Shown: positions 3,903-64,000 of the stretch, one piece after another | Layout: each line of letters starts with the position of its first letter | Numbering within the stretch: position 1 is the stretch's first letter | Assembly: GCA_009746045.1 (NCBI GenBank) | Contig: RPFO01000015.1 | Location: 3,526,764 to 3,590,763 of the forward strand | Source: Mesostigma viride | Taxonomy: Eukaryota; Streptophyta; Mesostigmatophyceae; Mesostigmatales; Mesostigmataceae | Length of the DNA stretch: 64,000 nt | Direction of reading: 5' to 3' | Program-made: the position numbers and the translations under genes | Notes under the pieces: model-generated | What the model saw: the letters and a program-made list of their open reading frames with translations, nothing else | What the model was told of the DNA's origin: nothing | The model's database searches: none

Positions 3903-4689
3903 ATAGGTATATAAAGCGCCGGACTACGCCGCCGCGGGTATACTCCTCGCGGACCTTAAAGACTGTCTCGTTGCGTATGGTCCAGATCGCGTATAGCATA
4001 GTAGTGCGTAGCCATATCCATTCTGCTTGGGAAACTGAAAGCTCAGACCCTGGTGTGCCAGCAATACCGAAAATGATGGTACGCACGCTGATTGGGAGAG
4101 TGGGTGGCGATGCCGTCCATGCGGCCCAGATGTTAATGAGCCACGTCCAAACCCCAGGGAGATTACAGTAAAGAAACCTGTGCTCAATGGTTTCACTAGG
4201 GTGCGTGCACAGGCATGATGCATCATGACCAAAACGCTCGTGGAGCATGGCGCAGACCCCTATCGCCCTATGCATCAAAAGGTGTTGTACATCAGTGGCC
4301 CTGCGGTCCACGAGAGGGTGGTCTACCGCCAGGGTAATCATCTTAACCCAAGTGTAGCCCGGCCAATGTATTCCCCAGCGGGCTCGGCCCGGGTGGGGCT
4401 GATGGTACATATGCAACAAGATATCATAACCCCAATCTGCGGTGTACTCAAAGATACATTTGCTGGTTCTGATGTCCCCCTTGGTTAAGACCCATCCAAA
4501 TTCAACCGGGTCCAGATGTAGTAGATCGAGCCGTGTGTTGCCCACGTGTAGCCATGTAATGCTCTCAACCGGGGATAATGGGTCCGGCTGGATCATGCAG
4601 ATCTTGGCACAGACCATGGGACTACGCGTATGCGGTGACACTGGGAAGCTGGCGTGTACGCATATAAGGTGGATAGTTGATACAGACAC
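3903..4689 (-). CDS. L1 ORF2 C-terminal part with zinc-binding motif, after a frameshift
   Basis: Continues ORF2 of the minus-strand LINE in a different frame. It contains a CCHC-type reverse-transcriptase zinc-binding motif (CLCTHPSETIEHRFLYC, C-x-C-x8-H-x4-C, near 4150-4210) followed by aromatic-rich sequence typical of that domain. The apparent stop just past the end (LLN stop, about 3895) is not native: it is supplied by the TTGAA tail repeats of the LINE inserted in antisense orientation at 1919-3902. Confidence 0.8.
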
Positions 4690-7600: not shown

Positions 7601-8108
7601 GTGAGATAAGGTCAGCGGCCATTTTGAAGAGGGAAGGGTAGAATGAGGCTTGATCCGTTGGCTCGGTTGGGGCATATACACTAATAATGTATCCCTTATT
7701 TCCTGCCCATGTAATGGACTGCCGCGTCCAACGGCCCTGCCATCTAGCCTCCGCTGTGTCGGTAGCTATAGCCCAGTCCTGGCATGTCAGCGTAGGGTTG
7801 GGAGGTTTACGGTATTGAATGAGGGCAGTGCCCCCTTGTGTACCGCGTGCCCATGCCCAACGGTGAACTGTCCTAGGTGCAAGTGCTCTAGCAGCTCTAA
7901 GGGCGGTGCGTGTGGCAGCTTCTTGGATTTTATGTTCCTGCAGTCCTATCCAAATTTCATGCGAGGGGCCCACGTAGCGCTCGAGCAAGTTGTGTAATGC
8001 ATTTGCTAATTCTCGTGTGCGAGGTATTCGCTGTCCCTGCCCTGGTGTGTGTGACCCGTATGTGTTCAGCCCCCTGACATTCCACGATACCAGTGTTAGT
8101 TGACTCAT
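4593..8108 (-). CDS. L1-type ORF2: APE endonuclease and reverse transcriptase
   Basis: Encodes the replication enzyme of a non-LTR retrotransposon, which nicks target DNA and copies the element RNA onto it. The open frame extends to 8210; the ATG at 8108 (MSQLTLVSWNVRGLN) is preferred because the endonuclease core starts directly there. Endonuclease landmarks in order are SWNVRGLN, GLQEHK, SVYAPT, LMGDFNIDLDE and FSDHYPL. RT landmarks are NYRPIRLLTVAYKIISKII, GFRAN, FWDFEKAFDRM, LPQGDCMSPILF and the catalytic AYVDDT at about 5931-5946. The catalytic residues are intact, so decay is recent or mild. The frame breaks near 4600-4690 and the C-terminus continues in another frame. The organisation fits the L1/Tx1 clade. 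Confidence 0.9.
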   Translation of the reverse strand: MSQLTLVSWNVRGLNTYGSHTPGQGQRIPRTRELANALHNLLERYVGPSHEIWIGLQEHKIQEAATRTALRAARALAPRTVHRWAWARGTQGGTALIQYRKPPNPTLTCQDWAIATDTAEARWQGRWTRQSITWAGNKGYIISVYAPTEPTDQASFYPSLFKMAADLISQGFEIALMGDFNIDLDEHPPIRTAAFSKQIMDLNLQDVIRSRDHGPTWLATRLNVRTTRRLDKIYITPAWADLVCYASVDRSVNFSDHYPLIVTLAHHTNSARGPGIPRLNKHLLADDKYYLEIMTRWQSWRASKGSYTDCCSWMQEGLANILEFSQLYSQNIRRQKGQDYRYYQRIVNKLQAKPTLYQSELTKLQRAQTELDKLRFERHTLALDSENLWWHQVGERMTKEFFALIPTPKAHSSITEIQDEHGSHRDITSILQSGHRYYSALFLNEPHPDSSAAMQKILHAIPRRLTPAQQQELDQIPSMEEATTAMEHIKTGSAPGVDGLPIEFWKTFWSLLHIDFYECILEIWRHGKVSGRWAESALILLYKKGDKTLWKNYRPIRLLTVAYKIISKIIQRRLYTVLDFLIGPEQVGFRANLHINDSITLIMDIVEKAWRDDIEGFILFWDFEKAFDRMCWEYLEHILTALGFGPQLMTVIMGMIKSLAWYLLIDGHKSATGASSRSLPQGDCMSPILFLLAHAGLYWLHQNDPRIRGFPTGNGKGIFQTAYVDDTTNVCISLPEVHAVMDNITTYSVATQQRCNVLKSTGLHIGKTNTLRYALPNLAVTWVKPGDHHLLHNCPIGCTPEGRLAEQRSFMYDETNHVGKLAGVLLTAGRWGAVHRMSLRGRTLIVNQLLFSKVLYYCQAHPPNDATTQLIQRLGSNFVWKQKGLISHTVHGWINREMSFMSWVHGGLGLHNIQWRLWSLYAKQVISVFMGVNTHPGCMLARETLASLSTHASGTSWQLGAGILGSTLISYKGLPWYWQRIWTGYNKLKPGRLVFPTTREEVARQPLFFNDLITDATNKPLGTLHGHNPYDGFLRASPPIVRVLDLYLGHGAAYRRLSYDEVSTWVSHMPSLQAWQTLISAIPAAWHALMTAPRKPIITGDWVSFYADGVTPACKGLVVTVLPPEGLQLQLLDAISGHNGCLYQLSTLYAYTPASQCHRIRVVPWSVPRSA

Positions 8109-8210
8109 GTCATTGCAGGGCTCCAGCGGACCAGGCCGGGTAGGTTCCGTGTAGGTCCCCATGGCGTGGTGAGATTGGACCTGCGAAAGGTGAAAGACAC
8201 GGCACAACAT

Positions 8211-9882
8211 GCACAGGGCGTGGGCGTGAGATAGTCATTAAAAGAGAGACCTACTGTGCAGTGTGCTGTGAGCAGAACCAAAGCGATTGGAAAGGCTGCA
8301 TTACACCCACGTTTGGGTAATGGCAGCAGGTATTGAGAAAAGTCGTTATGGAGGTGTCTTGGTGATAGCGGATCACCTGGTGTGGCGATAACTATTCCAT
8401 AGTCATTGCGCCTGTGAAAGGGTAACCGAGGGTACAGGAGGTCACGCTCCAAGGAGACTACTCGCCCACCCAGGTGGAGGGGCCCAGGCCTAGTCCATCC
8501 TGCCGATGGGTTTTCGAATCCGAGCCGTGGCTCACTGACCGAATGCCATAATGGGGTAGCCGTCACGAGAAACAGTGAGGCGAGGGGCGGACTTACGAAT
8601 TTCGTAAGGCCTGCTCCTTCTACCCACACGTTTCAAGTGACGGCTAGCTGTTCCGCCCCTCAGAAGAGATGGCTAGACGTACCTTTTCGTGCTGAATCCG
8701 AATCTGCCCTTTGTTTCGCGTTTAGATTACTACGTAAGGTGCTATCTCGTCCGCCGTCAGGGCCACCATAGCCAGCTTTTGGGCCACCAAGACGTCTCAA
8801 GCTTTACTTTATTTCACTCAGATAAAAATAAGTCTCAGTCGGCAGCTGGCCGGCTGCTAGTTCCACCACAGGAGTGTGTGAGGTGTGAGGTACTAAGAGG
8901 GCAAACAAGGTGCGTAGCTTCGCCTTTTAAACAATTCCAGGCTCAGCTACTGGGTAGCAGTTATGATCTACCTACAACGTGGCCACACCAAACCGGTTCT
9001 TTTCTGACTGTGTGGCAGTTACAATCATAACGTGATCTCAAGCCAACCATTCACAACCAAAGTTCAAGGTCAGTCACAGAATGACTGGGTCACTTATGGA
9101 ACAGAACTTAAACATGCGGCACATGCCCGTTCATGTAGTCCAGAGCTAGCACTAAACTATAAGTACTAGTTTCAGGCAGGTGTGTCGATACTTCTGACAA
9201 AAAGGTCTCGAAGCGCCCGAGCTGCGAGCGCAGCGAGCGAGCGCAGCGAGCACCGTACTAATTCCTATCCGGACCGCAGCGAAGCCAGTAGCCACGGGCC
9301 ACGGGCAACTAGCCACGGGGAAAAAATTTCAGCAACGGAGGGACGAAAGGAATTTCAACGGGCCACAACTCGCACTACAGTGTAGCCAGTAGCCAGTAGC
9401 CACCGGGCCACTAACCAGTACCGGGCCACGGGCGCCGCGCCGGGCCACGGGCACTGGGCCACTGGCACCGGGCCACAGGAATTTAGACTCTGCGCAGCCG
9501 GGCTTGAATAGGATTGTCCAAAAGTTGTGGAGTCCAAAATAGTTGGGGGCTTGGCCCCCGCTGGGTCTACTTGTATGGAAATAAACTAACACCCATTTCA
9601 CCGGAAAAATATTGTTTTATTACGTGCATTCGCTGCCCATGTGCGTTCCTGTGCGTTCTAGCTAGCTAATTAACGTGCATTCGCGGGCTGTGCAAGGGAA
9701 TCAGCAGCCTTCCATGATGCTGACTATACTCGTTAATTAAGCAACTAGTAAACCATCCCCAATTATACTGTGCTGCCCTGCTTGCATAACTCGTTCCGTG
9801 AATCAAGCCGATTGCAGCCGGCTTTAAATTAAAAAGAGCTTTTTACAGATCTGTAAAGTTAGGGCCCGAAAAATACAGATGG
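8211..9882. other. No gene recognised; minisatellite-like CCACGGGCC stretch
   Basis: Bases 8211-8690 are probably the 5-prime end of the L1 element. Bases 9210-9255 carry CGAGCGCAGCGAGC repeats, and 9285-9475 carry irregular repeats of GCCACGGGCCAC and CCAGTAGCCA. The remainder shows no coding signal I can support. Confidence 0.4.
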
Positions 9883-47505: not shown

Positions 47506-47759
47506 AGCTGTTGCATCCCAAGGCAACAATACTGTAGCATGATAAAGTGATCAACGTGTGACAGTCCGCCGCTGGAAGCGGACAAAACGGACAAGTATTT
47601 TTAGAGTTAGCTTGTGCCAATCGGAGGGGACCGGCCCGGTCACCGTCCGTTTGGTGTGTTAGAAGTATAGTCGTGGCACACTATTTTGTACACTTCTGAT
47701 CGAGCCGACCAAGAGTCGTGAGATAGTTTGTGTGTGTGCCAAACGACCCTAAGTGTGTG

Positions 47760-47913
47760 AAGTTGTACAAGCTACTGCTTATACTTTTTATGCGCAAACC
47801 TTTTAGCTAAGGTTAACGCATATTCTTACATCCTGCGCAGGATGTAAGAATATGCGTTAACCTTAGCTAAAAGGTTTGCGCATAAAAAGTATAAGCAGTA
47901 GCTTGTACAACTT
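47760..47913. repeat. Perfect 154 bp palindrome
   Basis: 77 bp arms meet without spacer at 47836/47837 (TCCTGC/GCAGGA). The outermost 30 bp of the arm (AAGTTGTACAAGCTACTGCT and onward) also occurs as a direct copy at 48161-48190. No gene. Bases 47914-48666 otherwise contain nested ATTCGATATCG repeats near 47980-48015 and a T-arm-like GAGGTTTCGAACCC at about 48122, with no recognised LTR. Confidence 0.9.
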
Positions 47914-48666
47914 AAAACCTTTGCGCGTTGGGGCGGAATATTAAGCGGCTCCCTAACTAGGGTTTTACTTCCGCATCGAATTACTAATTCGATATCGAAT
48001 TACTGATTCGATATTAATCCCGGGAAGGTCCGATATCTACCTCGCTAGGCGATTAATTAGGTCCGACCGGTGCCCCGGCGGATCCTCCCAAATAATCCCT
48101 ACTCGGCACTGTCCCCACCACGAGGTTTCGAACCCATGACTTCCGCGCCGCGCCGGTTCTAAGTTGTACAAGCTACTGCTTATACTTTTTAACTTCTATG
48201 TTTGTTCAGGGCCGGTTGGCTCGGTGTCTGTTCGTGTGGTCAAGAGACAAGTTGTAGCGCGTGGCGGCGACGCACGCCACGCGGTTGTCAAAGTATATGA
48301 GTTGAGTAACTCTAGAGCCCTAGGATCTGGCTCTAAGTTCCCCATGCCCGTCCGCACGCCTTCCGCTAGCGTCCGCTAAGCCGCCGGCTATAATCCGGCG
48401 GTCCGATGCGGTCGACCGGTCTAAGGGCGGCGCCTAGGGCCGGCGCCACCTAGGCCCCAGTCCGGGGCCTAGTTATCCGGGTCGGTACGGACAGCTAGCC
48501 TGTCCCACGGTTACGGCTAACCGGATAGGCTTTGCTGGCTAAGACATAAACCAGTGGTTGGCCAGCTCCGACAGCAGTTCTCTGTGTTCACCTTATCCCA
48601 AGCTCAACGTGACCGACCGCCATAGCTGAGCCGGTCGGGCTTTAACTTGTATTCATAAAAATCCCG

Positions 48667-49370
48667 ATGGCTTCCGGTACACGGAGCCGCACGGGCGAAC
48701 ACACAGATACGCCAAGTGGCGAGGCCGCAGGGTCCGTCCTGCCACGCTTTAGTGCGGACGAGGCCACGAGGTTGATGCAAACCCTCGTGGCGCAACCTGA
48801 ACTGGCCAAGCAGTTCAAGCATTTGATGCTTGCTGCTGACGATGCACTGAATCGCGGCCCTCTCAAGCAAACGGAGGTGCCCGCTGATCTACCTGCCGAC
48901 TATACGGCGGACGACGCAGCAGATTTTCTAGCTGCTCTCAAGCGTCTGCGCGATGGACGCGCAGACAAAGATTCGGAGCTGATTGGCAAGTTCCGTGCAG
49001 TATTCTGCAGTACAACAAAGCACCCAAACATTGCCAATCTAGTTCGCATTGCGGACGACAACAAACAAACCTGGGAAGTTTTTTACAACGGTCTAGATGC
49101 CCACTTGTCGCGGTCTAAGGAAGAGGCCGACGAGCAAGCCTTCAACGACTTCGAGGGCTATGCAGTTAATAAGGCAAATTTGCCCGGGGCTGCACGTGAT
49201 TTCCAGGTCTTCGTGCACAAGCACAAGCTGCTAGATACTCTCAAGCCCATTTTCCTGTGCAATCGATTTCTCAAGAAATGCGACCTGTCGTCGGATGTGC
49301 ATCTGACCATAGCGACGGAACTCAAAAAGAAGAGTGCTGTCAGTTTCGACGAGGGCATGCTGTATTTATC
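48667..49370 (+). CDS. Copia-like Gag, N-terminal part
   Basis: Starts MASGTRSRTGEHTDTP, the same first seven residues as the Gag at 1294. Helix-rich sequence follows (SADEATRLMQTLVAQPELAK, then FLAALKRLRDGRADKD) without further family motifs I can name. The frame stays open to 49506 but loses Gag-like composition after LYLSHASR near 49370, where a shift leads into the next segment. Confidence 0.7.
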
Positions 49371-49625
49371 TCATGCTTCAAGAGTGCGCAGTCCAAGCCG
49401 GCTGCCTCGGCTGCTCTGCCATCCCTGCGCAAGGTGGATACCGGCGCGTCTTCTTCTTCAGGCGCAGAGGCTCCAATTACGCGGTCGGAGCTTACGGCCA
49501 TCCTGAAAAAGGTCGTCGGCCACGGCAACAACGGGGGCCAGCGAGGGCGCAAGCGCGGGCATGGTGGCGACGCCAAGCAGGGTGATAATCCCCCGGCCAA
49601 AGCGGCAGCAGGGGGCGTCTACTGA
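49371..49625 (+). CDS. Gag C-terminal segment in a shifted frame
   Basis: Continues the Gag in the second frame: CFKSAQSKPAASAALPSL, RSELTAILKKVVGHGN and a Gly/Arg-rich GGQRGRKRGHGGDAKQGD, ending at 49625. The basic stretch and position just before the zinc knuckles fit the nucleocapsid end of Gag. Compensating frameshifts on both sides suggest decay. Confidence 0.6.
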   Translation, partial: SCFKSAQSKPAASAALPSLRKVDTGASSSSGAEAPITRSELTAILKKVVGHGNNGGQRGRKRGHGGDAKQGDNPPAKAAAGGVY

Positions 49626-50697
49626 CCGCAAGCAACGCTGTGAGCGCTGCTTCGGACGTCGCCATGTCCGGGATGACTGCCGAGTTCGCCCGGACCTGGA
49701 GCTCGAGGACAACCTTTGCCGCAAGTGCCACGACGTTCTGCGTGGTCACAGCGTGGAGGCGTGCAAGGCCAAGCGCATCGTCGTCCACGGCACACGCGAG
49801 GAGTGGGCAGAGCGACGGGCAGCACGAAAGTCAGGTGAGAGCACGCTCGATACCCCTTCTTTTGCTCAATGCGTCACGCTGAACCGGGCCGTCGTAGAGC
49901 CTGACGTCGTTCCTAAAAGCAACGTGACTGCATCCTCTGTCTCATTCCGTGATGTGCTCACGCAATCCGTTGATGCTGCTCTGGCTCTGTCGCGCCAGGA
50001 TCACGTGCTTCCTGAGCACGGGTCTACAATGCGTGACCTAAGCAATGTGGTGTCTTCTAGGTCGGGTGTGTACAACGCCGAGCGACCAAGCACTACTGCA
50101 GCACCCCAGCTAGATACTGGGGCGGTTGGGCCTATGAGGAATGTTGTGACAGTGCAAGAGAATGCTGGGCGGGCAGATGTTCTCGGTACACACCACCCTA
50201 GTGTGGATCTTCACATTGGCAAGGTGCTCACACGGGCGGCCTTTCGTGCAGCCTCTGAAGCTGCCCAGTTAGCCAATGTCACTACCCCAGTAGTCACCCC
50301 ACCTGTTGAGAATCCTGACAATGCCACTGCACCTCAGGCTGTCACCCTGAAACTGTTAGCATACCAGATGCACCGTGCATACGGGCATGAGGCCCAAGCC
50401 GAGGTAGAGGGGGCACACATGTTGGGGGCACCTTTATACAACGAGCTGAAGAATGTGCGTGCTCAGTGTCCTGCCTGCATCAAGATCAGGAAGAAGTCGC
50501 GTAGGCGGCATGCCAAGACTCCACCCTTGGAGCGAGGGTACCTTGTGGGGGATGTCATGCACATGGAAGGGGGGGACACCTATTTCATAGTCAAGGATAG
50601 GTTCAGCAAGGTCACCTACATTGAGCCGCTGCCCCACATGTTGAGGCTGACCTGCACAGGGCTATCAAGATCAGCCTGGCTTTCTTTCATCCCGTAG
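49561..50697 (+). CDS. Zinc knuckles and integrase N-terminal half
   Basis: Begins with a canonical CCHC knuckle, CERCFGRRHVRDDC, at 49639-49680, followed by a looser CRKCHDVLRGHSVEAC. After a Ser/Thr/Val-rich linker comes an integrase HHCC zinc-binding module: H and H in MHRAYGH near 50370, C and C in CPACIKIRKKSRR near 50470. The catalytic core then starts (GDVMHMEGGDTYFIVKDRFS, near 50548-50607, with the first Asp). The frame is lost after IEPLPHM and ends at 50697. Integrase joins element cDNA to the genome. Confidence 0.75.
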   Translation: MVATPSRVIIPRPKRQQGASTDRKQRCERCFGRRHVRDDCRVRPDLELEDNLCRKCHDVLRGHSVEACKAKRIVVHGTREEWAERRAARKSGESTLDTPSFAQCVTLNRAVVEPDVVPKSNVTASSVSFRDVLTQSVDAALALSRQDHVLPEHGSTMRDLSNVVSSRSGVYNAERPSTTAAPQLDTGAVGPMRNVVTVQENAGRADVLGTHHPSVDLHIGKVLTRAAFRAASEAAQLANVTTPVVTPPVENPDNATAPQAVTLKLLAYQMHRAYGHEAQAEVEGAHMLGAPLYNELKNVRAQCPACIKIRKKSRRRHAKTPPLERGYLVGDVMHMEGGDTYFIVKDRFSKVTYIEPLPHMLRLTCTGLSRSAWLSFIP

Positions 50698-51449
50698 TGG
50701 AGCTCATGCTAGACCAGCAGTTCCGCTGTGTGCAAGGTTTGCCGGGGATGGAGGCCGTGGTCATCGTGGGGCGTGAGGATCACGGCAATATGGGCATGAT
50801 AGATCGCACTGTAAGCTATGTCAAGACTGTGGCAGCCAAGCGACAGGATAACCCACATGGCAAATCCTACGCGGTCAAGACGGCGTGGTGCAAGGAGCTC
50901 ATGCATGTGTGCAACCATAGGCACGTGCTTGATGTCAAGGGCTTTGGGCTAGTCACGCCTCGGGGGCTGTCAGCGGGCACCTACTCACCCGAGGTAGTAG
51001 AGGCATACCAACAGCATCTACAGGATACCGCCGCCAAGCTGCGGCTCAAGGATGCCACGCTGCCTGATTTGTCTAGCGCTTTTGAGGTCGGGCAGTTGGT
51101 CATGTTCCACAAGGAGAGCTCGCCCAGCGGCAAACGGGGCACCATGCAGGGGCCTGGGGCCATCACAAAGTTAGACTGGCCGCTGCGGGTCATAGACATA
51201 GAGTGGAATGATCGGGTGTATAGGGTACCATGGGCATCGGTGGCAGGCTATAAGCAAGGGGATAGCATGGAGAGTGAGCTGGCAGCCAACAGGGCACTGG
51301 GGTGGGTAGTGAAGGATAATGCGCCTGTCGTAGCATCTGAGGTGGTACCCCACGGGTCGCTCCCAGGGGCAGACACAGCTACACCCCCCCCTCCCCTGGG
51401 CCCCAATATGACCCCGTGGATGGGTGGGATGAGGATGGGGTGGGTTTGA
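50697..51449 (+). CDS. Integrase C-terminal half
   Basis: A different frame from the preceding part. Contains an acidic and hydrophobic core remnant (EAVVIVGREDHGNMGMIDRT), then a C-terminal SH3-like segment (GQLVMFHKESSP ... GAITKLDWPLRVIDIEWNDR, VYRVPWASV). The last motif aligns with VYRLSWAHI in the minus-strand element at 63.9 kb, which supports the assignment. Ends in a Pro-rich linker; a shift near the C run at 51386 leads into the protease-RT frame. Confidence 0.6.
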   Translation: MELMLDQQFRCVQGLPGMEAVVIVGREDHGNMGMIDRTVSYVKTVAAKRQDNPHGKSYAVKTAWCKELMHVCNHRHVLDVKGFGLVTPRGLSAGTYSPEVVEAYQQHLQDTAAKLRLKDATLPDLSSAFEVGQLVMFHKESSPSGKRGTMQGPGAITKLDWPLRVIDIEWNDRVYRVPWASVAGYKQGDSMESELAANRALGWVVKDNAPVVASEVVPHGSLPGADTATPPPPLGPNMTPWMGGMRMGWV

Positions 51450-53002
51450 CGGGACCTAGTGCACGTAGTGACTCACCTCCTGTGCTAGCCACGGATAATG
51501 TGGGAGGCCCGCCTAGCGTGGCCTCGCCGGAGGGTCAGGGTCCTGCCCATGCGCCTCGCCCACCTAGGGACCTGGCTTCAACGGTCACGGCCTTGTGGCG
51601 TGCTCAGGCGCTTAAAGCGAAAGCTGCATCAGGGGTGGCTCAGGTCAAAACTCTCTCACAGGGGGTCAGGCCGGTTAAGTCAGCCTTGTTTCCTACGTGT
51701 AGACCGTGGCAGCTGGTGGCTGTGGACACGCAAGCATCCGTGTCTATTATCTCTCGTCGGGCAGCCACCCTGTATCCAGTGCTAGAGTCGCCGTACAAAT
51801 CGGTGACCGACTTTGCAGGCACTTCGGCATATCAAGTTACCGGGATGGTGGTGCTGCCGGTGTTGGGCATTGACACGCCGTTTCACGTCGTGGATGGCTA
51901 CGAGGATGTGGCCTTGCTGGGCGAACCTTTCGTATCATACCCGGGGTTCTCAGTGTCCGCTGACTTGCTGTCAGTCGCGGGGGTGGGCAGCATCCCGCTT
52001 CGCGAGTACCACGCTCCATTGGGGGTGGTGGTCGGGCAGCCCGGCGTCGTGCGGCGCTTACCGATGGCGGCGTTTTCCACACCGCCGCTCGTCCAGTCCA
52101 TCATTCAGCCTCAGGATTGGCACCCGCGCAGCTTCGGCCTCCACTCACACTCACTGGCGGCGGATAGCCCTGTGACGTGGGAGCAACTTGTCCTGGACTG
52201 TCAAGATCCTCTCAAGTTTGCTTTGTGGCGCGACGCGTTCATTCGAGCCAAGGAGCAGTGGCGAGAGCGCGAGGTCTACCGAGGATTGGAGAGTGTGCCA
52301 GCCGGGGCCACGCGGTTGCGGTTGAAGTTCGTGCTCACCTACAAGCCGGACGAGACCAACTCTTCGGTGGTGTTCCGGGTTAGGCCCGTGGTCACGGAGA
52401 CGAAGGGGTCCTCCCCGCTGGATGCCAAGGATCTTTATACCCCTGGGCTCAACCATGTTTCGCATCGGCTACTGACGGTCATCTACTTGGGCAAGCGGAA
52501 CGCGGGCAAGGACTACGGGATGTGGTGCGGTGACTTTCAGCGGGCATTCCTCCACAGCGACGCTGGGGTCGCGCAGCAAACATGGCAAGGCACCCGCTAC
52601 GTGGTGAAGGTCCCGGTGGTCTGGCAGGATGGCGCCATTGGCAGCGAGTATATCGAGCTGTTGACAGGGGTGGAGGGGCTGCAGAGCTCTCCCATCATCT
52701 TCCGCATTTCCGCGGAGGAGGTCCTGCAGAGCTTAGGGGCCACGTACCATCGCGCTGATCCTAACTTCTTTGTGGTCCCCACCGGCGTCCCTGGCGAGCC
52801 AGCCCTCTTCGTGTGGCATGGCGATGACTTCAAGCTGGTGGCACCTCGCACATTTGCTACCCAGTTTCTTGCTGCAGTGGCGGCTAAGTTTCCCCTGGGC
52901 AGGGCGGTGGATCATGAGGAGGGTAAACCCGTGGTGTTTTGCGGCGTGCAGTCTACGTTGCAGCGGGATTATTTAGCGACGCCGGCCAGGCAGCTGCCGT
53001 GA
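51416..53002 (+). CDS. Aspartic protease-like domain plus RVT_2 reverse transcriptase
   Basis: After a Pro/Ser-rich linker a retropepsin-like domain has the active-site motif VDTQASVSIIS at about 51722 (clan AA consensus DTGASVSxIS, here Gly to Gln) and the downstream flap/C-lobe motif VALLGEPF. The RT follows: LKFVLTYKPDETNSSVVFRV at about 52325, the first catalytic Asp in CGDFQRAFLHSD at about 52530, LLTGVEGLQSSPIIF, and the paired Asp in VWHGDDFKLVA at about 52812 (copia consensus YVDD). RNase H is not visible. The order IN, then PR, then RT departs from standard Ty1/copia. Confidence 0.75.
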   Translation: MDGWDEDGVGLTGPSARSDSPPVLATDNVGGPPSVASPEGQGPAHAPRPPRDLASTVTALWRAQALKAKAASGVAQVKTLSQGVRPVKSALFPTCRPWQLVAVDTQASVSIISRRAATLYPVLESPYKSVTDFAGTSAYQVTGMVVLPVLGIDTPFHVVDGYEDVALLGEPFVSYPGFSVSADLLSVAGVGSIPLREYHAPLGVVVGQPGVVRRLPMAAFSTPPLVQSIIQPQDWHPRSFGLHSHSLAADSPVTWEQLVLDCQDPLKFALWRDAFIRAKEQWREREVYRGLESVPAGATRLRLKFVLTYKPDETNSSVVFRVRPVVTETKGSSPLDAKDLYTPGLNHVSHRLLTVIYLGKRNAGKDYGMWCGDFQRAFLHSDAGVAQQTWQGTRYVVKVPVVWQDGAIGSEYIELLTGVEGLQSSPIIFRISAEEVLQSLGATYHRADPNFFVVPTGVPGEPALFVWHGDDFKLVAPRTFATQFLAAVAAKFPLGRAVDHEEGKPVVFCGVQSTLQRDYLATPARQLP

Positions 53003-53853
53003 GCTCCTGGTCCTTGTCGCAACTGTTAGGACCTAGGTCGCGTAGCTTGCAACCTTTGCTCCTCGCCCCAGGTAACGCTCTCGCTGGCTTGCTCACTCCA
53101 AGTGACAACCACGGTGCGTCGGCAAAGAACTGCCTTGACCTGCCTCAGGCCATAGCTTTATGTTACCTCATTTCCATCGTGCCCTAAGGCATCGCCCATC
53201 GGCTTCGCACAGTGCACCGCTACCTTGCCAGAGCTCTTCTTACCGCTACCTTGCATCCTTGCTGCAGGCAGCGTTAAGGATCTCTGACATTCCGCGACTA
53301 GGTATCACCAGTTCCTGTCACAGCTCTGCACGGATGCGCATCCTTGCAGAGCCCGCGACTGGCCTACTGGTCTCTACTTAGTCGCCGGACCGTTGCGCCC
53401 TCAGCCTCCATGGACCTGAGTCACGTGCTGGTCCAGGCTAAGCCTGTGCAGGCCCTGCCTGCCACGTGTCCTGTCCACTGCGGCCTCGGTGTGCACTGCC
53501 GCCGCCGCCGGTCGGCAGGACTTCGGGACCTGATAACTCTCACGTCCCTTGTCTGTTTTAGGCAGTCAGCACGGCGTTAGAAAGGTCTCCTCATCCTGCA
53601 TCCAACTAGCACATTGGTGCCCCAATATGCTAACTCCAACCCTTTCTTGTTTTGGAGGCTGGACCAGCCTGAGATTCCAATCAGCCATGCTCACTCATGC
53701 CACAGACTCCTGACCTCTCCCAGAGGCCAGGGCTGCCCTTCTTTTGGAACTTGAGGTTTTTACCCAAAGATTAGTCCAGAGCCAACATTGGTTCCAAGGC
53801 CCAGCCCTGACCCAGATGTCAGCCCCCAACCCTTTCTTTTGGGAACCTGGTTG
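53003..53853. other. No gene recognised
   Basis: Probably the degraded 3-prime part of the copia-like element, where RNase H would be expected, plus flanking DNA up to the CACTA terminus. The frames present do not match RNase H motifs I know. Confidence 0.4.
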
Positions 53854-56800
53854 CACTAGGAACTCGGCTTTGAGAATGGGTGAGAAAAGGTGAGAAAAAG
53901 GGTGAGATGGGTGAGAAAAAGGGTGAGAAATGGGTGAGAATGGGTGAGAAAAGTGAGAAAATAGGGTGAGAAATGGGTGAGAATGGGTGAGAAAAGGGCA
54001 ATCTCACCTGGGTGAGATTGCCCCAAAAAGGTGAAAAAAGGGGAAAAACGTGAGAAAAATCTCAAAAAACAGGACGTGAGATAAGTGAGAAAAACGGGAG
54101 GTGTGAAACGTGAGAAAAGTGAGAAAATCAGGACGTGAGAGACGTGAGAAAAACAGGACGTGAGAAAAGTGAGAAAACACAGCGCTGAAAAACACACCCA
54201 TAATGCAATATGCTGGCAGCAGACACATGCATGCAGTGCCAGTAACAACCGCTGTTCAAAACAGCACGAACAATAATGATTTTTTCATTAAATGTTTGAA
54301 TAATTTTAATGTTTACAGCTGCAAGAACCCGTTGATTCAACTATTCAACACTGTTATGGCGTTATGTACATCTTCGGCATTCAAATATGCCTGTTCAACA
54401 CAGTCTGTTATGGCGTTATGACATCTTCGGCATTCAATGCCTGTTCAACACATGCAGTCTGTTATGGCGTTATGACATCTTCCGCATTCAATGCCTATCA
54501 TCAAATACTATATGGTAGCTAGCTAACAAAGCGGGCCGGTCGACAGGGCGTCACATGCTGACTTGAAAGTGGAACCGCTTGCATTTTACTCTCGTGGTCC
54601 CTGCAAGAAATAAACAAACCGACACAATATACGCAAAAGGAAAAGAAATCAGATCCTTGACATAGATGTAAGCGTTCTACAAGGAAGAGCTCACCAGCAC
54701 CTAACGGTCCATGCAGCAAATGTGTAGAACCCAACACTCACTCTTATGGCAAAGCAGCCCCATGTGGCAAGGCAGCACCATACACATGAATCACACCATG
54801 CGCCAGATGTCACACGAGCAAGGCACAACGTTGTCGTCGGATCAGAAAGCAACAAACGTGAAAACGCTAGCGGCCCAAATCTGAGATTCCGCGGAACACA
54901 GAAAATAAGAAAGCTCAGAAGCTACCAGCAAGGGATCGAACATATGACCTTTGGCATGATTTCGCGGCTGTGTGAGTCTCCTGATCCGAAGGCATCTCAC
55001 TTAATTAACGTTTCGAAACAGCCAAACTGCGGAAAATCTCTTACCGGAGAGAGTTGCCAATATCAAGGAGACAACCAGCGCAGGCCAGAAATCGGGAGAA
55101 TCCGGACCATGGTAGCTCGAGCCTGCCGTTATCTTGTCCGCGTTTTCGAGTCGTGCAGGATTATGAATATGAATGGAGATGGAAATGTGTAGCCTTGTGC
55201 ATTGAAATTACGGCTGGCTGACGTGAAGAGCGACTACATGACCTACACGGTGGGGCCGGAAACGGCTTGCTTGATTGTGTTTCATCGTGGGCAATGAGTC
55301 CAACAACTACTTTCTCTGGGCGGCAAACTGCGGCAAATTGAACGCAAACCTCATCATGAAATCTTGACCGTCGAAATGTAACCATCCGACGACTTATGCA
55401 GTATGCCGCGTAATTTTCTGTTGCGGGAGAGCCGTTGGGCCGGTTCCCGACGCGGGCGACCAGTGGTTTGCGTTAAGTTAACTTATAACTTAGCTGAAGT
55501 TCTCCAACAGAAGTGATCCAAGCCGCATGATGGCACTCATCGACGGCCTCAGTCTATTGACGCGTCGGCCCGATTTTGGCGGCACCCAATTTGACCCCAA
55601 CGGCACCTACCGACAAAGGGCATAGGTACACTAGGAACTCGGCTTTGAGAATGGGTGAGAAATGGTGAGAAAAAGGGTGAGAAAGGTGAGAAAAAGGGTG
55701 AGAAATGGGTGAGAATGGGTGAGAAAGGTGAGAAAAAAGGGTGAGAATGGGGTGAGAATGGGTGAGAAAACACGTTTCTCACCCGGGTGAGATTGCCCCA
55801 AAAAGGTGAAAAAAGGGGAAAAACGTGAGAAAAATCTCAAAAAACAGGACGTGAGATAAGTGAGAAAAACGGGAGGTGTGAAACGTGAGAAAAGTGAGAA
55901 AATCAGGACGTGAGAAAAGTGAGAAAAGTGAGAAAACACAGCGCTGAAAAACACACCCATAATGCAATATGCTGGCAGCAGACACATGCATGCAGTGCCA
56001 GTAACAACCGCTGTTCAAAACAGCACGAACAATAATGATTTTTTCATTAAATGTTTGAATAATTTTAATGTTTACAGCTGCAAGAACCCATTGATTCAAC
56101 TATTCAACACTGTTATGGCGTTATGTACATCTTCGGCATTCAAATATGCCTTTTCAACACAGTCTGTTATGGCGTTATGACATCTTCGGCATTCAATGCC
56201 TGTTCAACACAGTCTGTTATGGCGTTATGACATCTTCCGCATTCAATGCCTATCATCAAATACTATATGGTAGCTAGCTAACAAAGCGGGCCGGTCGACA
56301 GGGCGTCACATGCTGACTTGAAAGTGGAACCGCTTGCATTTTACTCTCGTGGTCCCTGCAAGAAATAAAGCAAACCGACACAATATACGCAAGAGGAAAA
56401 GAAATCAGATCCTTGACATAGATGTAAGCGTTCTACAAGGAAGAGCTCACCAGCACCTAACGGTCCATGCAGCAAATGTGTAGAACCCAACACTCACTCT
56501 TATGGCAAAGCAGCCCCATGTGGCAAGGCAGCACCATACACATGAATCACACCATGCGCCAGATGTCACACGAGCAAGGCACAACGTTGTCGTCGGATCA
56601 GAAAGCAACAAGCGTGAAAACGCTAGCGGCCCAAATCTGAGATTCCGCGGAACACAGAAAATAAGAAAGCTCAGAAGCTACCAGCAAGGGATCGAACATA
56701 TGACCTTTGGCATGATTTCGCGGCTGTGTGAGTCTCCTGATCCGAAGGCATCTCACGTAATGAACGTTTCGAAACAGCCAAACTGCGGAAAATCTCTTAC

Positions 56801-57924
56801 CGGAGAGAGTTGCCAATATCAAGGAGACAACCAGCGCAGGCCAGAAATCGGGAGAATCCGGACCATGGTAGCTCGAGCCTGCCGTTATCTTGTCCGCGTT
56901 TTCGAGTCGTGCAGGATTATGAATATGAATGGAGATGGAAATGTGTAGCCTTGTGCATTGAAATTACGGCTGGCTGACGTGAAGAGCGACTACATGACCT
57001 ACTCGGTGGGTCCGGAAACGGCTTGCTTGATTGTGTTTCATCGTGGGCAACGAGTCCAACAACTACTTTCTCTGGGCGGCAAACTGCGGCAAATTGAACG
57101 CAAACCTCATCATGAAATCTTGACCGTCGAAATGTAACAATCCGACGACGTATGCAGTATGCCGCGTTATTTTCTGTTGCGGGAGAGCCGTTGGGCCGGT
57201 TCCCGACGCGGGCGACCAGTGGTTTGCGTTAAGTTAACTTAGCTGAAGTTCCCCAAGCCGCATGATGGCTCTCATCGACGGCCTCAGTCTATTGACGCGT
57301 CGGCCCGATTTTGGCGGCACCCAATTTGACCCCAACGGCACCTACCGACAAAGGGCATACGTACGTTTCACGCGCACCACGACCTTCGAGCTCTGCTATG
57401 GCGGTGGTGCCGTGGGGCCCGCATCAGACTGCGGGCCCTTATCTGCTTTGGCGGTGCTGCCGTTGGGCCCGCATCAGAATTCAGGCCCTTTATGCATGCG
57501 GGCCATTAATGCATGTTACTTTTTTAGTCTTCTGCATACAAATATGAAGCAATGAGGTCGTGTCCTCTGGATTTTTGCACTGCAAATGGCATTTGCACCG
57601 TGTGCAGTTCCTGGACGTTTGGAAACATGCATGATGGCATGTGGCTAATGTAATGACTGACTAGCTAGACCGTTTCAGTGGTTTTTCATTTGCGGGTATT
57701 TCCTCGTAAATGGTGGGAAAGCGATCGCAGCAATGGTTCTCACCACTAGACACTCCCGGCCAGTGAAGCTCGAAAAACACGCCCTGATCAAGCAAGCTGT
57801 TTCCGGCCCCACTGTATAGGTCATCTTACAGTCGCTCTTTGCGTAAGCCAGCCATAATTTCAATGAACAAGGCTACACATTTGCATACTCTTTGCTTGGT
57901 TATCGGTGTGCCTTTGTTTGGATG

Positions 57925-58022
57925 CAGGGGGGATCGCTGTGCTGACACAACGCGCCGCAAGGGATTTGCTGGGAGAAGATGCCCTTCCCAAGGCTGATTA
58001 CAGCGACCCTGCGAATGGCGAC
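57925..58022 (+). CDS. Possible upstream exon in the inner CACTA element
   Basis: Follows an acceptor-like TTTGGATGCAG and reads IAVLTQRAARDLLGEDALPK, then ADYSDPANGDEAYW before GTGAGCC. The first 40 bp, including the acceptor, is duplicated at 58276-58345 and in the outer copy at 60281-60352. Its joining to the downstream frame is not resolved. Confidence 0.3.
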
Positions 58023-58297
58023 GAGGCCTACTGGTGAGCCTTGTTTTTTGCAAATGCTACTTACGCCGTCTGCTTTGGTTATTTTAATTCAGTCCTATTG
58101 AAAGGCGCCTTGGGATTAGCCATGCAATCATGTTTTACTGTCACAAAGCCAGCCCTAGTAATTAATATCTAGTTTGTTTGGTTTTACCCATCCGGGTGCC
58201 ATGATCTTGCCGCCAGTAAAAGCGTCCTGTGTTGTATCCGTTCTATTTTTTTTAATAACCAATACTTAATAATAATACTCTTTGCTGGGTTATCGGT

Positions 58298-59257
58298 GTG
58301 CGTTTGTTTGAATGCAGGCGAGATCGCTGTGCTGACACAACGTTCAACGTGATTGCATGGGCATCATTAAACCTGACGCCGCTTGTGCCGCAAGGCATTG
58401 TAGCGGCGTGTGGGGGCGTGAAGCGCTACGCGGATTCTTTCCACAAAGTCAGGATACACGGGTTCAACTACCGCACAGAGGCTGCGGACCAATCCCTGGG
58501 AAAGCGGCACAAGAATGCGGGAGTTGCGGTGCATGGCCCGGGCGGTGTAGACTTTGGTTTCATCACACACATTCTGAAGGCCAGGTTAGAGTACCCACGA
58601 GGGGGCTGGGAATGGCAGCTGTTGTTGAAGGTGGAGCTTTTTGATCGCCTTCATGTCGCTCACCTGCCCCACGAGAGGTTGGTGGTCATCAGCAGCGCAC
58701 AGGCCCCCAGGTCGTCGCGCCTTGTGTTGCCAGGTGCAGTGAGCTCAGTTGGGTATGTCGTCGATGAATGCTATGCTCCCGAAATGGTGGTAATCCCTGC
58801 CAAACTGCCATGGAGCATGGCACACCAGGCGCAATCTTCCCTCAGTAACCATGTGTATCACAGCGTGGCAGCAGATTTCCCCACCATGCCGCAGTTTGAA
58901 GTGATTGAGGAGGGTGAGCCGATGCCACCGCCTAGTGGCAAGAAGAAAGGCAAGAAGAAGGGGTCCAAGAAGAAGAAGAAGGTGGCAGCGGCAGACGTAG
59001 GTGATGGCGACGTGGTGCGCCGCGCTGGCAAGGCACCTGCTCGAGGGCGCAGCCGCAAGCGTGGTGCTCCCACAGATGCTGGACCTAGCCAGCCCACCGT
59101 TGTAATTGAGGAGGTCCCTATGGCAAAGAGGGCCAGTGGAAGGCAGCGTAAAGCTGTGAACTATTGCGACACTAGTGGGGATGACACTATGTCATCAGAA
59201 GATGATGTTGATGCAAGCAACCCCTCGGACAGCAGTTCTGAAGAAGATGACTTTTGA
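58298..59257 (+). CDS. Protein resembling the C-terminal domain of CACTA transposases
   Basis: About 313-319 aa; the exon probably starts at the acceptor TTTGAATGCAG ending at 58317. The N-terminal half reads VRIHGFNYRTEA, GKRHKNAGVAV, VDFGFITHILKARLEY, EWQLLLKVELFDRL, VVISSAQAPRSSR, then YVVDECYAPEMVVIPAKLPW. In order and spacing this parallels the DUF4216-type tail of plant CACTA transposases (NGYRFHT, KTQNSGVMV, VDYYGVLTDIIEL, VVLFKCDWFD, FILASQ, VFYVEDP, WHVV); the match is from memory and unconfirmed. The C-terminal half is Lys-rich (KKKGKKKGSKKKKK), then an AT-hook-like RGRSRKRG and a Ser/Glu/Asp tail. Location within CACTA termini supports the call. The DDE core is missing. Confidence 0.55.
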   Translation: MRLFECRRDRCADTTFNVIAWASLNLTPLVPQGIVAACGGVKRYADSFHKVRIHGFNYRTEAADQSLGKRHKNAGVAVHGPGGVDFGFITHILKARLEYPRGGWEWQLLLKVELFDRLHVAHLPHERLVVISSAQAPRSSRLVLPGAVSSVGYVVDECYAPEMVVIPAKLPWSMAHQAQSSLSNHVYHSVAADFPTMPQFEVIEEGEPMPPPSGKKKGKKKGSKKKKKVAAADVGDGDVVRRAGKAPARGRSRKRGAPTDAGPSQPTVVIEEVPMAKRASGRQRKAVNYCDTSGDDTMSSEDDVDASNPSDSSSEEDDF

Positions 59258-60364
59258 TTTAATTTGGGCATGACAGCATTGTTTATGGAATGATGTGCTG
59301 TTTTATATTGTATGACAACCCTATATTGCACCTTTGTGCACCCTACAATGCATATCAAAGTGGTGTTGAGTTTTTTTTTCACGTTAAGGACTTAATGAAA
59401 TAAAGCTCATGATTTTTCTCGTGTTACACTCTTGGTGAGAAATTTCTCACCACGTTGACTTGTGATTTTTCTCGTGTTAGTGATTTTTCTCGTGTTGGTG
59501 AGAAACTTCTCAATTTTCTCAATTTTCTCAATCTTTCTGCCTTTTTCTCACCCATTCTCACCTTTTTTCTCACTTTAGGGTTTTTTCTCACCCCAATCTC
59601 ACCAAAACGCCCTTTTTCTCACCAAAATCTCACCCTGGTGAGATTTTTTGCCTAGCGTTTGCGGAAAAAAATTGAGATTTTTCTCAATTTTCTCAAAAAA
59701 TTCTCACAAAAGGTGAGAAAATTGAGGGTTTTGAGAATTTTCTCAGAAATTGAGTTCCTAGTGTACGTACGTTTCACGCGCACCACGACCTTCGAGCTCT
59801 GCTATGGCGGTGGTGCCGTGGGGCCCGCATCAGACTGCGGGCCCTTATCTGCTTTGGCGGTGCTGCCGTTGGGCCCGCATCAGAATTCAGGCCCTTTATG
59901 CAGGCGGGCCCTTAATGCATGTTACTTTTTTATTCTTCTGCATACAAATATGAAGCAATGAGGTCGTGTCCTCCGGATTTTTGCATTTGCACCGTGGGCA
60001 GTTCTTGGACGTTTGGAAACATGCATGATGGCATGTGGCTAATGCAATGACTGAATCAAGCTAGACCGTTTCAGTGGTTTTTCATTTGCGGGTATTTCCT
60101 CGTAAATGGTGGGAAAGCGATCGCAGCAATGGTTCTCACCACTAGACACTCCCGGCCAGTGAAGCTCGAAAAACACGCCCTGATCAAGCAAGCTGTTTCC
60201 GGCCCCACTGTATAGGTCATCTTACAGTCGCTCTTTGCGTAAGCCAGCCATAATTTCAATGAACAAGGCTGCACATTTGCATACTCTTTGCTTGGTTATC
60301 GGTGTGCCTTTGTTTGGATGCAGGGGGGATCGCTGTGCTGACACAACGCGTTCAACGTGCTGGG

Positions 60365-60857
60365 AATCAACAATCCTGACGTCCCAAGGTTTACTGGAGG
60401 GGCGGGGACCTGATGATCAACCACGAGATGTGGACGCCCCCTGCGGGCTAGAATAGCCCTAGCTTGTAATCATTGGCAGTCTCTGCCGCCATGGCAGCCA
60501 TGCCTAGAATGTTTGCCTAGCTGAGCCATTATACCTAGTCACGTGCACCGCTAACACACGGTACACAACCAGCCATAGCCTTAGCTTAGTCCTTGTACAA
60601 CCATGCTACGTCATGGCAATGCTCAGATTACTTGCCCATGCACCCGTTATGATATGCTCACATGGGTCTTATTGCACCCACAGATTGCCGGATCGTTTAT
60701 CGGGTCCAATAGCAGCTGCGACATGCCTTTGGCATGAAGGAGAAAGGGGGTCTGTGCCCTTCCTGTTGTGCACACACAGGGATTAAAAGCACTTAATTGC
60801 TCCGTGATCCAACGGGAGCACGAGTTCAATTAATCATGTAATTAATTAATTAGTGGT
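60365..60857 (+). mobile_element. LINE 3-prime fragment inside the outer CACTA copy
   Basis: Replaces the region that in the inner copy runs from about 58350 to 59357. Ends CCAACGGGAGCACGAGTTCA followed by an AATTAATT tail, like the other LINE 3-prime ends here. The flanking outer sequence resumes at GTGGTGCTGAG. A deletion at the same place prevents seeing a clean duplication. Confidence 0.5.
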
Positions 60858-61248
60858 GCTGAGTTTATTTTCACATTAATGACTTAATGAAATAAAGCTC
60901 GTGATTTTTTTCGTGTTGCACTCTTGGTGAGAAATTTCTCACCACGTTGACTTGTGATTTTTCTCGTGTTAGTGATTTTTCTCGTGTTGGTGAGAAACTT
61001 CTCAATTTTTTCACTTTTTCTCACTTTTTCTCACCCATTCTCACCTTTTTTCTCACTTTAGGGTTTTTTCTCACCCAAATCTCACCCAAACCCCCTTTTT
61101 CTCACCAAAATCTCACCCTGGTGAGATTTTGTTGCCTAGCGTTTGCGGAAAAAAATTGAGATTTTTCTCACTTTTCTCACCTTTTTTCTCAAAGGGGTGA
61201 GAAAATTGAGGGGTTTTGAGAATTTTCTCAGAAATTGAGTTCCTAGTG

Positions 61249-61977
61249 TGAGGAGAAAAGTGAGGTCTCTACATCCAGGCAGCTGAAGTTGGACAGAGGA
61301 AGTTATGATACGTATTATTGTGAGTTCCTGGTCCTTTCCAGTTATCACAGGCGCCCGTATCAGAGGCGCCCGCTCACAACCATTCCCCTTCCTTTTCATT
61401 CAACAGACACGGATAGAGCCCAGTTAATGCTTGCCAAGCTGGGGAGCCCATGTCCTCACTGAGGGATAAACTCAGGATTCACACATGCCAGGCTGTGGTC
61501 AGCTGGGGAATCGAACCCCACCCCATATCCTCCAGGTTTGGAACAGCTCCTGGAACTGTACATTACAAACAAACATGAAATGGAGATAACACGATTATGA
61601 CTTATTAATATAGAGAGAATAACCCATAATGAGGCTCCCTGGCAACCACGTCCAACATGGTCACACAACCAGGGTTTTATTAGCATGCAACAGGTTGGTT
61701 ACAGAGAATATAAACAAATGTACAGCAACCTGTAAGAGCCAACATTTGGGCTGCCCTTTCAGGGTCCATTCCATGAAGACCCAAGGCCGGTTACAAGGTC
61801 CTTAAGACCCTTCTGCAACCCCATGACAGGGCCAGGCGATATTCTCAGCCAGGGGAGTGACTCCACCCTGACCCCTGTTCAGCAGGGTGTACGAACCCTG
61901 AAGAACCTGCTGTCAGCCATTTCTGGCTACCCAGCCCACCGGGACACATCCCACCTCAGAGCAAGGCGTTGGTCTCC
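61249..61977. other. Copia 3-prime region, possible LTR; tRNA-like motif
   Basis: On the minus strand this follows the RNase H stop at 61978. It includes a purine-rich CTGAAAGGGCAGCCCAAA before TGTTGGCTC (near 61745), which could start a 3-prime LTR, and an AATAAA at about 61680. At 61498-61520 TGGTCAGCTGGGGAATCGAA looks like a tRNA 3-prime complement, but no full tRNA folds. Confidence 0.35.
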
Positions 61978-62672
61978 CTAGCACCCCACCATGGGGCCCA
62001 TGAGCCCAAGGAGCAGAGGGTACTGCTGCACGGCCTTCTCCTCAAGCTTGGTGAGAGCATCTGCAGGGTTATCCAGGCCAGCCACATGTTCAATGTCAGC
62101 TAAGCAGGACAGTGCCTTGAGCAACAGATAATCAAGGTCCCTGCTTCTGGCCAGCTGCCTGTGCACGAACTGCACCATGCCCATGCTGCCAGTTTTCACC
62201 AGTGTGTGCATCTGCAACCGACAGGAAGCTACCTTACTTAGCTGGTAGAAAAGCTCCCTCAAGTAAAGGGCTGTGTGCAGCCCCTCACAGATTGCCCTGC
62301 ACTCAGCAATGTCACTGCTGGGGTTACCCTATTCTGCAACCGACTGTACCAGCAGACCAGAGAGGACTGTTCCTGCACCAGGGTGATTAATGCTGCTGCC
62401 CGCCCCCTGACCTCTGTGACCTTCCTACTATCCATAGAACTGTCCACATAGAGAACCATGTCAAAGGGCCTGTACTAATCCAAAGGACCCAAGATGAGAG
62501 GTGGAGACATCCTCACAGATTGCATCACACTCTCAACACCCACCTCGACCAGCTGGGAATCTGTCAACCGACTCAAGACCAGCAGGTCAGGCGCACAAAT
62601 GCTAGCCAACCATGCCAACATACCGCGTATGGTAGCACCCCTTGGCCGGGTAATGGGCTCCTGCAGGGACAC
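61978..62672 (-). pseudogene. Copia RT end and RNase H, frameshifted
   Basis: Three overlapping frames. 62672-62475: ITRPRGATIRGMLAWLAS, then LLVLSRLTDSQLVEVG (RT-RNase H connection). 62459-62259: VLYVDSSMDSRKVTEVRGRA, then SSLVCWYSRLQNRVTPA (RNase H start). 62262-61978: RELFYQLSKVASCRLQMHTL, RSRDLDYLLLKALSCLADI, then EHVAGLDNPADALTKLEE, the standard copia RNase H end with H-V-x-G-x-x-N-P-A-D-x-L-T-K. Inactive because of shifts and the lost RT core. Confidence 0.75.
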
Positions 62673-64000
62673 TTAACACAGCAGGCACACTTATCAAAGA
62701 AAGGTGGTATTGTTCGCCATGTCTCCCTAGCCTCTTCCTGGTCACCCTTGAGAAAAGCCCCCTTGAAATCTATCAAAGCAGAGCCATAGGTAATGCCTTT
62801 GACCAGGAAGGATAAGAAAACACACAACAACATTCTCCACGTGTCATGCAGCATCCCTGGTGTATAGAGCTCCTCATCTGCGATCTGTCTAGTGCCATGG
62901 TACTCGGTTGCAATTGGTCTGACATGTGGCACCTTGACACCATCTACCTGTTTGAGCTTGAGGACAAACATCAATCTGAGCAGCTGGTGATCCTCAGGGA
63001 GGACCTCTACAGGCTCTGCACAGTTGGCAATCATCCACTCATGCCCAGAAGCAACGAAGCCAGGAGTCCATGCCTTAGCCATCTTGGGGCTTTGCATCAT
63101 CTCCACTAGCTTGTGCCAAGGTACAGGACTCGTTCCAGGGATCTGGTACCTCTGCACCCCCAACTGGCGTGGGTCAAACGTAGTTGGGATGATCAGCAGG
63201 TCCTGAGCAATGGGCTCCTTAGAATCAGGCCCCTCCACTGCAACACCCTTCACAGCCCTTACAGCCACACTAAGTCCCTGGGAGTAGCGATATCTCTGGA
63301 GGGGTAAACTACCCTGCCCTTCTAGTGCCAATTCCTCAGAGGTTATCGTCACCCCCGGCTGGCATAAGAAATTCTGCCCCAGTATGGCTGGACCCTCATA
63401 GCCCTCTACCACACAGAACACAGTGGGCACCCCCAGAATAGGCACACTCACCTCCCCCAGAACTTTCATGGACACATTCCCCGAGAAATCAGACACGGCT
63501 GGGCAACCGGCTACAGACATCCGCAACCCTGCAGCATCCTCAGCCCTCAGAATGGACACCTGCGAGTTGGTATCCACCTCTAATGTTGCTGCCCAGCATG
63601 ACCCCCACCCCGTGAGCTTAGATACCTTGGGATCACGCTTGCCGCTCATCAGTGCCCGGATGACGTCCGCCATGAGGAGCCCCTTGGGCTTTGGTCCAGC
63701 CCTGGCCCCCACTGGCCTTGTGACAGTTGCTGCAGCAGATTCCAGCTCACCCTCGTCCATCCAGGACAGACCATCATCCAAGCATGGAGGGTTAGCATCT
63801 ACTGCCTGGCTCTCCTCCTGAGCCTCAACCTCCAAGGGAGGCTCAGGGCCGTCTACAGGCCAGATTGCACATGGCCTCTTCTCTCGGATGTGAGCCCAGG
63901 ACAACCTGTACACGCGCCTAGGATCCTTGTCCAAGGCTACCAGACAAGAATGGTTGGCCTCATCCAACTGGGTTACCAGCCCATCCTGCCACTTTCCACG
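62573..64000 (-). CDS. Integrase end, protease-like domain and RT N-terminal half, open at the edge
   Basis: The frame is open to base 64000, beginning RGKWQDGLVTQLDEANHSCL, then RRVYRLSWAHI (integrase C-terminal SH3-like segment). After an acidic linker comes VDTNSQVSILR near 63545-63577 (retropepsin active site, Gly to Asn) and PAILGQNFL. RT follows: LRLMFVLKLKQVDGVKVPHV, then ELYTPGMLHDTWRMLL and the first catalytic Asp in ALIDFKGAFLKGD. The frame leaves RT after WRTIPPFFDKC and ends at 62573 without the YVDD box. The order mirrors the plus-strand element at 51.4 kb. Confidence 0.75.
   Translation of the reverse strand, partial: RGKWQDGLVTQLDEANHSCLVALDKDPRRVYRLSWAHIREKRPCAIWPVDGPEPPLEVEAQEESQAVDANPPCLDDGLSWMDEGELESAAATVTRPVGARAGPKPKGLLMADVIRALMSGKRDPKVSKLTGWGSCWAATLEVDTNSQVSILRAEDAAGLRMSVAGCPAVSDFSGNVSMKVLGEVSVPILGVPTVFCVVEGYEGPAILGQNFLCQPGVTITSEELALEGQGSLPLQRYRYSQGLSVAVRAVKGVAVEGPDSKEPIAQDLLIIPTTFDPRQLGVQRYQIPGTSPVPWHKLVEMMQSPKMAKAWTPGFVASGHEWMIANCAEPVEVLPEDHQLLRLMFVLKLKQVDGVKVPHVRPIATEYHGTRQIADEELYTPGMLHDTWRMLLCVFLSFLVKGITYGSALIDFKGAFLKGDQEEARETWRTIPPFFDKCACCVKCPCRSPLPGQGVLPYAVCWHGWLAFVRLTCWS

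Follow-up and report, generated by a model that had tools for sequence, protein, structure and literature searches.

Retrotransposons with long terminal repeats (LTRs) are sorted by two orders of the domains that they encode. In Ty1/copia elements, this order is, partly by definition, GAG-PROT-INT-RT-RH, that is, Gag, protease (PR), integrase (IN), reverse transcriptase (RT) and RNase H (RH), as in the 5,410 copia elements of a large plant survey which dropped elements with an unexpected domain order as likely mispredictions (PMC6317226). Selected copia elements of diatoms are ordered PR, IN, RT, RH (PMC2806351). The Ty3/gypsy order is PR-RT-RH-IN, and Gmr1 is an exception on this side, with IN in the copia-like place in a gypsy-type element (PMC2774666). 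Here, we describe an element in a stretch of 64,000 nucleotides from Mesostigma viride (contig RPFO01000015.1, positions 3,526,764 to 3,590,763; hereafter, the window) that has neither the copia nor the gypsy order and, like Gmr1, is an order exception. We consider it likely that this element belongs to a copia-type LTR retrotransposon lineage with a retropepsin-like domain between IN and RT (Gag-IN-PR-RT-RH). A search of open papers, with Repbase and subscription papers outside its scope, returned no report of the IN-PR-RT order. Survey filters on domain order could lose such a lineage, and Pfam models barely detect parts of it.

Domain order in the window element and its relatives

The window contains, on the plus strand at 48,300-52,970, a copy of an LTR element (family 1) that is truncated on the 3' side, with nothing of the element beyond 52,970, and has the order Gag-zinc knuckle-IN-PR-RT-RNase H (Table 1). 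A previous reading made from the letters of the window (the sequence-only reading) had described this order, and the features that it named, namely the zinc knuckle, the integrase HHCC motif and core start from ~50,353, the VYRVPWASV C-terminus of IN, the segment from VDTQASVSIIS at 51,722 to ALLGEPF, and the RT with an HGDD box ending at 52,970, all lie where it had placed them; the start, which it had set at 49,561, moves upstream to the LTR at 48,300. Frame breaks interrupt gag, IN and the IN-PR boundary of the window copy, which shares 99.1-99.6% identity with ten full copies at other places in the 440 Mb host genome that we searched. The rbcL of this genome is, judging by its matches, of form IB: its best solved matches are 9hvm and the group of 1gk8, a Chlamydomonas structure (681 bits), closely followed by others of that type (676 bits), which places the host in the green lineage and makes an alga probable. 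The full copies are ~6.15 kb long, with LTRs of 345 bp that start with AGTTGAG and end with TTTAACT. Because the LTR pairs of these ten copies are 96.2-100% identical, and 5-bp target duplications flank 8 of the 10 (the 3' end of L039 was not found, and L046 has no duplication), insertion was recent; family 1 is young and large, with 240 genome matches to its IN-PR junction. The gag start codon is located ~20 nucleotides (nt) past the LTR (48,626-48,690); inspection of the same interval by eye showed no familiar tRNA primer site adjoining the LTR, no search having been made.

Single-protein Pfam searches detected no retroelement family in the window copy (there were two chance-like rows) and gave no match for the protein of the full copy L043, and PDB searches gave no retroelement match for either; support for the domains therefore comes from relatives. 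The L043 copy has one natural frame of 1,570 amino acids (aa) that runs from Gag into RNase H, so that the IN-PR-RT order does not stem from a single chimeric copy. A tblastn search with the L043 protein against the fetched loci and the window revealed older relatives, 29-38% identical to this protein over IN and RT and, in one of them, 42% identical over PR. The relatives at L043 and L050 lie on minus strands and are both interrupted by young copies nested within them; the relative at the edge of L046 consists of IN only; and that in the window, on the minus strand at 62.35-63.6 kb, belongs to a second family (family 2). PR precedes RT in all three relatives that have more than IN, and IN precedes PR in two of them, those at L043 and L050.

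In family 2, for which 135 of 5,935 candidates were scored, IN, PR, RT and RNase H are encoded in one frame of 1,197 aa in 22 of the 135 scored copies and in one of 1,195-1,205 aa in 26. The family-2 copy L051 consists of gag with a CCHC box (878-1954), a TGA codon, and a frame (1958-5548) encoding a linker, IN, PR, RT and RNase H. Thus, the IN-PR-RT order is present in four sequence groups (family 1, family 2, and the L043 and L050 relatives), with natural uninterrupted frames in two of these. Outside the host genome, no relatives were found in viral and genome contig sets, both without eukaryote genomes.

The RT-RNase H section is copia-type, judging by profile comparison with one ordinary copia element from the host genome (L052 together with L006; hhalign probability 97%, E 9e-11, 419 columns). 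The RNase H residues D, E and D and the NPADALTK motif were read against WTDADW, EAEY, CDN and NLADIFTK of that element. RVT_2 was matched in two of the three RTs (best E 3.6e-7) and rve in three of the four integrases (best E 4.7e-5), the L051 scores of 15.5 bits for rve and 20.1 bits for RVT_2 being below the Pfam cut-off. The RT box, usually YxDD, is HGDD in family 1 (35 of 35), in L051 and in the relatives at L043 and L050. A comparison of the RT profile with PDB returned no RT among 5 rows, all of which were tocopherol transfer protein and were taken as chance.

In IN, the HHCC motif and the D,D,E arrangement are recognizable: H, H, C, C and the first two carboxylates, both Asp, do not vary among the four groups, the Cys residues are spaced as C-x-C in L051 and in the relative at L043 and as C-x2-C in the other two groups, and the third carboxylate is E in three groups and D in family 1, with D-to-E spacings of 29, 29, 29 and 31. 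Asp stands for the catalytic Glu in the family-1 motif GMIDRT in 33 of the 33 copies read (L009-L050; 35 had PR read). Given that family 1 inserted recently and with 5-bp duplications, either this Asp suffices or IN is lent. Among 7 PDB rows for the IN profile, 5 were integrases or retroviral Pol (best E 0.013) and the other 2 were plasmepsins; hhalign produced no alignment of the ordinary copia integrase with that of the IN-PR-RT lineage.

Overall, the lineage shares with Ty1/copia a copia-type RT (RVT_2) and RNase H, IN before RT, and, in family 1, LTRs with 5-bp duplications (LTRs of family 2 were not seen). It differs from Ty1/copia in that PR comes after IN rather than before it, in the LTR ends, which in family 1 are AGTT...AACT instead of TG...CA, in the HGDD box, and in a PR that lacks a Pol_BBD match. 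From Ty3/gypsy it is set apart by the copia-type RT-RNase H and by a PR that is not before IN.

The retropepsin-like domain and alternative explanations

The segment at 51.7-51.95 kb, which the sequence-only reading had taken for a protease while leaving its fold to be checked, lies in a region (51,665-52,018) predicted to adopt the retropepsin fold in the one structure model from which this assignment comes. In a Foldseek search with this model, all 50 rows listed, of 675, were retropepsins, and residue 13 of the model aligned with residue 17 of the HIV-1 protease, so that the motif Asp falls on Asp25. The predicted fold is that of clan AA and is shared with the RVP domain of Ddi1 and with retroviral proteases, but the catalytic D(T/S)G of this clan is DT(Q/N) here. 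The five aligned PR sequences have 26 invariant columns, including D and T of the motif. A comparison of the PR profile with PDB gave proteases in 3 of 9 rows, the best row among them, and when four PRs were scanned as pieces, gag-asp_proteas, a likeness to Ty3/gypsy, ranked highest among Pfam families for three of them, in all cases below the cut-off.

A comparison of L051 with the L043 relative shows PR to be better conserved than any other Pol section compared (62% identity, vs 50% for IN, 54% for RT, and 24 and 27% for the linkers). For L051 and the window relative, the nonsynonymous (dN) and synonymous (dS) divergences were 0.094 and 0.961 in PR (counting method, 92 codons), 0.077 and 0.415 in RT, 0.155 and 0.49 in the IN C-terminus, 0.144 and 0.284 in the IN-PR linker, and 0.120 and 0.377 in the PR-RT linker, so that the dN/dS of PR, ~0.10, is the lowest of the sections compared, a value that owes much to the high dS.

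The ordinary copia element mentioned above has the usual domain order, with PR before IN and with Gag and Pol in overlapping frames. Its region before IN matches Pol_BBD (E 5.7e-15), unlike the PR of the IN-PR-RT lineage, and gag_pre-integrs (E 0.0015), and the two PRs gave no alignment (hhalign 0.24%). In L052 (C557:974471-976270), this region reads LDSAASSHM, Ala replacing Gly of the protease motif. The PR of the IN-PR-RT lineage might have moved, or it might have been acquired from elsewhere, with loss of the copia PR that preceded IN; on thin evidence, we lean towards the acquisition.

Several observations count against an active protease situated only after IN: all five aligned PRs have Q or N where the motif Gly would be, all sequence matches of PR are under the cut-off, the structure model is of middling confidence, and three of the four linkers before IN contain protease-like triplets (see below). 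The sequence-only reading had offered a different maturation scheme and a domain that is no longer a protease as alternatives, and given the replaced Gly, either may apply. Because of the first three, it can only be inferred, not claimed outright, that PR cleaves proteins. The fold might have been kept and the chemistry lost, PR being a spacer or a dimerising part of Pol, with the cutting performed by a host protease or by the ordinary copia PR on the same particles. We regard this explanation, which ranks first among the alternatives, as unlikely. It would accommodate the replaced Gly as well as the Asp in the third carboxylate position of all family-1 integrases read, in that parts of these elements may be worn and helped in trans, and other copia-type elements are present in the genome. 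It is countered by the conservation of PR between L051 and the L043 relative, by the low dN/dS in another pair, and by the invariance of the motif Asp and Thr, and the Ala for Gly in the ordinary copia element implies that the Gly may be dispensable here. If PR is inactive, these elements are mobile although they encode no working protease; if it is active, enzymes can be freed from Gag-Pol without a PR beside Gag, and a retropepsin motif can function with another residue in place of its Gly.

A second alternative, that a real protease lies upstream of IN, too divergent to be detected, with the domain after IN as an extra, appears quite improbable. The sequence-only reading had named such a protease as one of two findings that would overturn it, the other being a predicted structure without the retropepsin fold, and no upstream protease was found in the linkers before IN of the four groups (130 aa in L051, 144 in the L043 relative, 202 in family 1 and 111 in the L050 relative). 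A single D(S/T)G triplet is, however, present in three of these four linkers, all except that of the L050 relative, which exceeds the expectation from shuffled linkers (160, 380, 177 and 190 of 2,000 with a triplet), and in family 1, the triplet is followed by VLG. Nevertheless, the triplets sit in unlike contexts, the VLG is ~22 residues past the Asp rather than ~64 as in PR proper, no other linker has a VLG-type motif, and the linker before IN is only 24% identical between L051 and the L043 relative where PR is 62% identical. An upstream PR remnant is therefore unlikely, as far as these sequence comparisons go. With no upstream protease found in the linkers and a retropepsin fold in the model, the unusual lineage proposed in the sequence-only reading is supported. 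That the order was created by nested insertions or mis-assembly has almost no chance of being correct: nested copies are common, and two relatives were found through young copies inside them, but PR adjoins RT in 82 scored copies of family 1 and 135 of family 2, single open frames span IN-PR-RT, and relatives at 29-42% identity agree.

Reading frames and possible expression of Pol

Searches of the genome with family-1 proteins scored 82 of 6,678 and 109 of 4,457 candidates, so that the counts are lower bounds. PR, RT and RNase H are encoded in a single frame of 797 aa in 69 of the 82 scored copies, and the commonest Gag-IN frames are of 934 aa (24 of 109) and 683 aa (22 of 109), the positions of the breaks varying among copies. 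The Gag-IN frame shares ~105 nt with the frame of PR-RT-RNase H, and the latter is in the -1 frame. This two-frame form was seen at 89 of the 100 IN-PR junctions listed of the 240, with another form at the remaining 11, counts to be read with the caveat that near-identical copies may share descent and that sequencing could mis-measure such a tract. Three of the 82 rows continue without the frame shift (935, 1,321 and 1,570 aa); thus, continuous and two-frame forms both exist in family 1. The overlap could be a site of programmed frame change.

In L051, one in-frame TGA (1955-1957), followed by CT, parts Gag from Pol. The codon in this place is TGA in 100 of the 100 places listed of 143 junction matches, although many family-2 copies are near-identical and the 100 junctions are not independent. 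A TGA is also present at the matching place (minus strand, ~9,847) in the L043 relative, whose identity to L051 over the half of Pol at the TGA junction is 42%. Together, the listed junctions and this distant relative suggest programmed readthrough. The copia-type elements include Tca2. In this element of Candida albicans, Gag and Pol are likewise parted by UGA, the Gag-UGA-Pol RNA yields Pol, and the flanks of the stop alone gave no readthrough in yeast (PMC2194720). No notable RNA fold was detected 3' of the junctions, so that no RNA structure backs either readthrough or frame change.

Under the proposed scheme, a Gag-Pol precursor would arise in family 2 from readthrough of the UGA that separates Gag from Pol. 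In family 1, it would perhaps arise from a -1 frame change where IN meets PR, so that IN would be made at the level of Gag and PR-RT-RNase H at a lower level. After dimerising in the particle, PR would cut on both sides of itself and thereby release the preceding IN and the following RT-RNase H. It is possible, and we propose it tentatively, that these elements represent a third LTR-retrotransposon order, maintained in an old lineage of the green line that has remained mobile. In this lineage, a non-copia retropepsin would have replaced the copia PR and would work with DT(Q/N), and the family-1 frame change at the IN-PR boundary would mean that IN is made at the Gag level.

Feature coordinates and other observations in the window

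Table 1. Features of the family-1 copy and of family-2 relatives in the window
Feature	Position	Strand	Remarks
5' LTR, family-1 copy (AGTTGAG...TTTAACT)	48300..48647	+	aligned to both LTRs of full copies; sole copy of that LTR in the window
gag open reading frame, first part	48667..49506	+	broken by frame change in the window copy; unbroken copies exist
gag zinc knuckle CX2CX4HX4C, CERCFGRRHVRDDC	49639..49680	+	motif read by eye
Integrase: HHCC, core (D, D, D for E), C-terminal part	50353..51240	+	ends approximate, mapped from L043; frame break at ~50.65 kb
Retropepsin-like domain, VDTQASVSII ... VTDFAG ... ALLGEPF	51665..52018	+	between IN and RT
Copia-type reverse transcriptase (DFQRAF, HGDD)	52088..52970	+	3' end missing
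Stretch 79% identical to L051 3' part	53219..53851	-	perhaps split 3' end of family-2 relative
Family-2 relative: RNase H and 3' part	61257..62668	-	~400 bp of RT missing vs neighbouring piece 62676..64000
Family-2 relative: IN C-terminus, PR (63,284-63,616), RT start	62676..64000	-	runs off the window

The interval 53,852-61,256 contains large direct repeats, with blocks of 68-300 bp, several of which are spaced near 1.76 and 2.4 kb; it is possible that these repeats divide the family-2 relative within its 3' part. Upstream of the family-1 copy, at 47,755-47,918, there is an abutting inverted repeat of 82 nt that is 98% complementary. The window also contains, on the minus strand at 4,599-8,234, an open reading frame of 1,212 aa of a non-LTR element, with endonuclease and RVT_1 domains.

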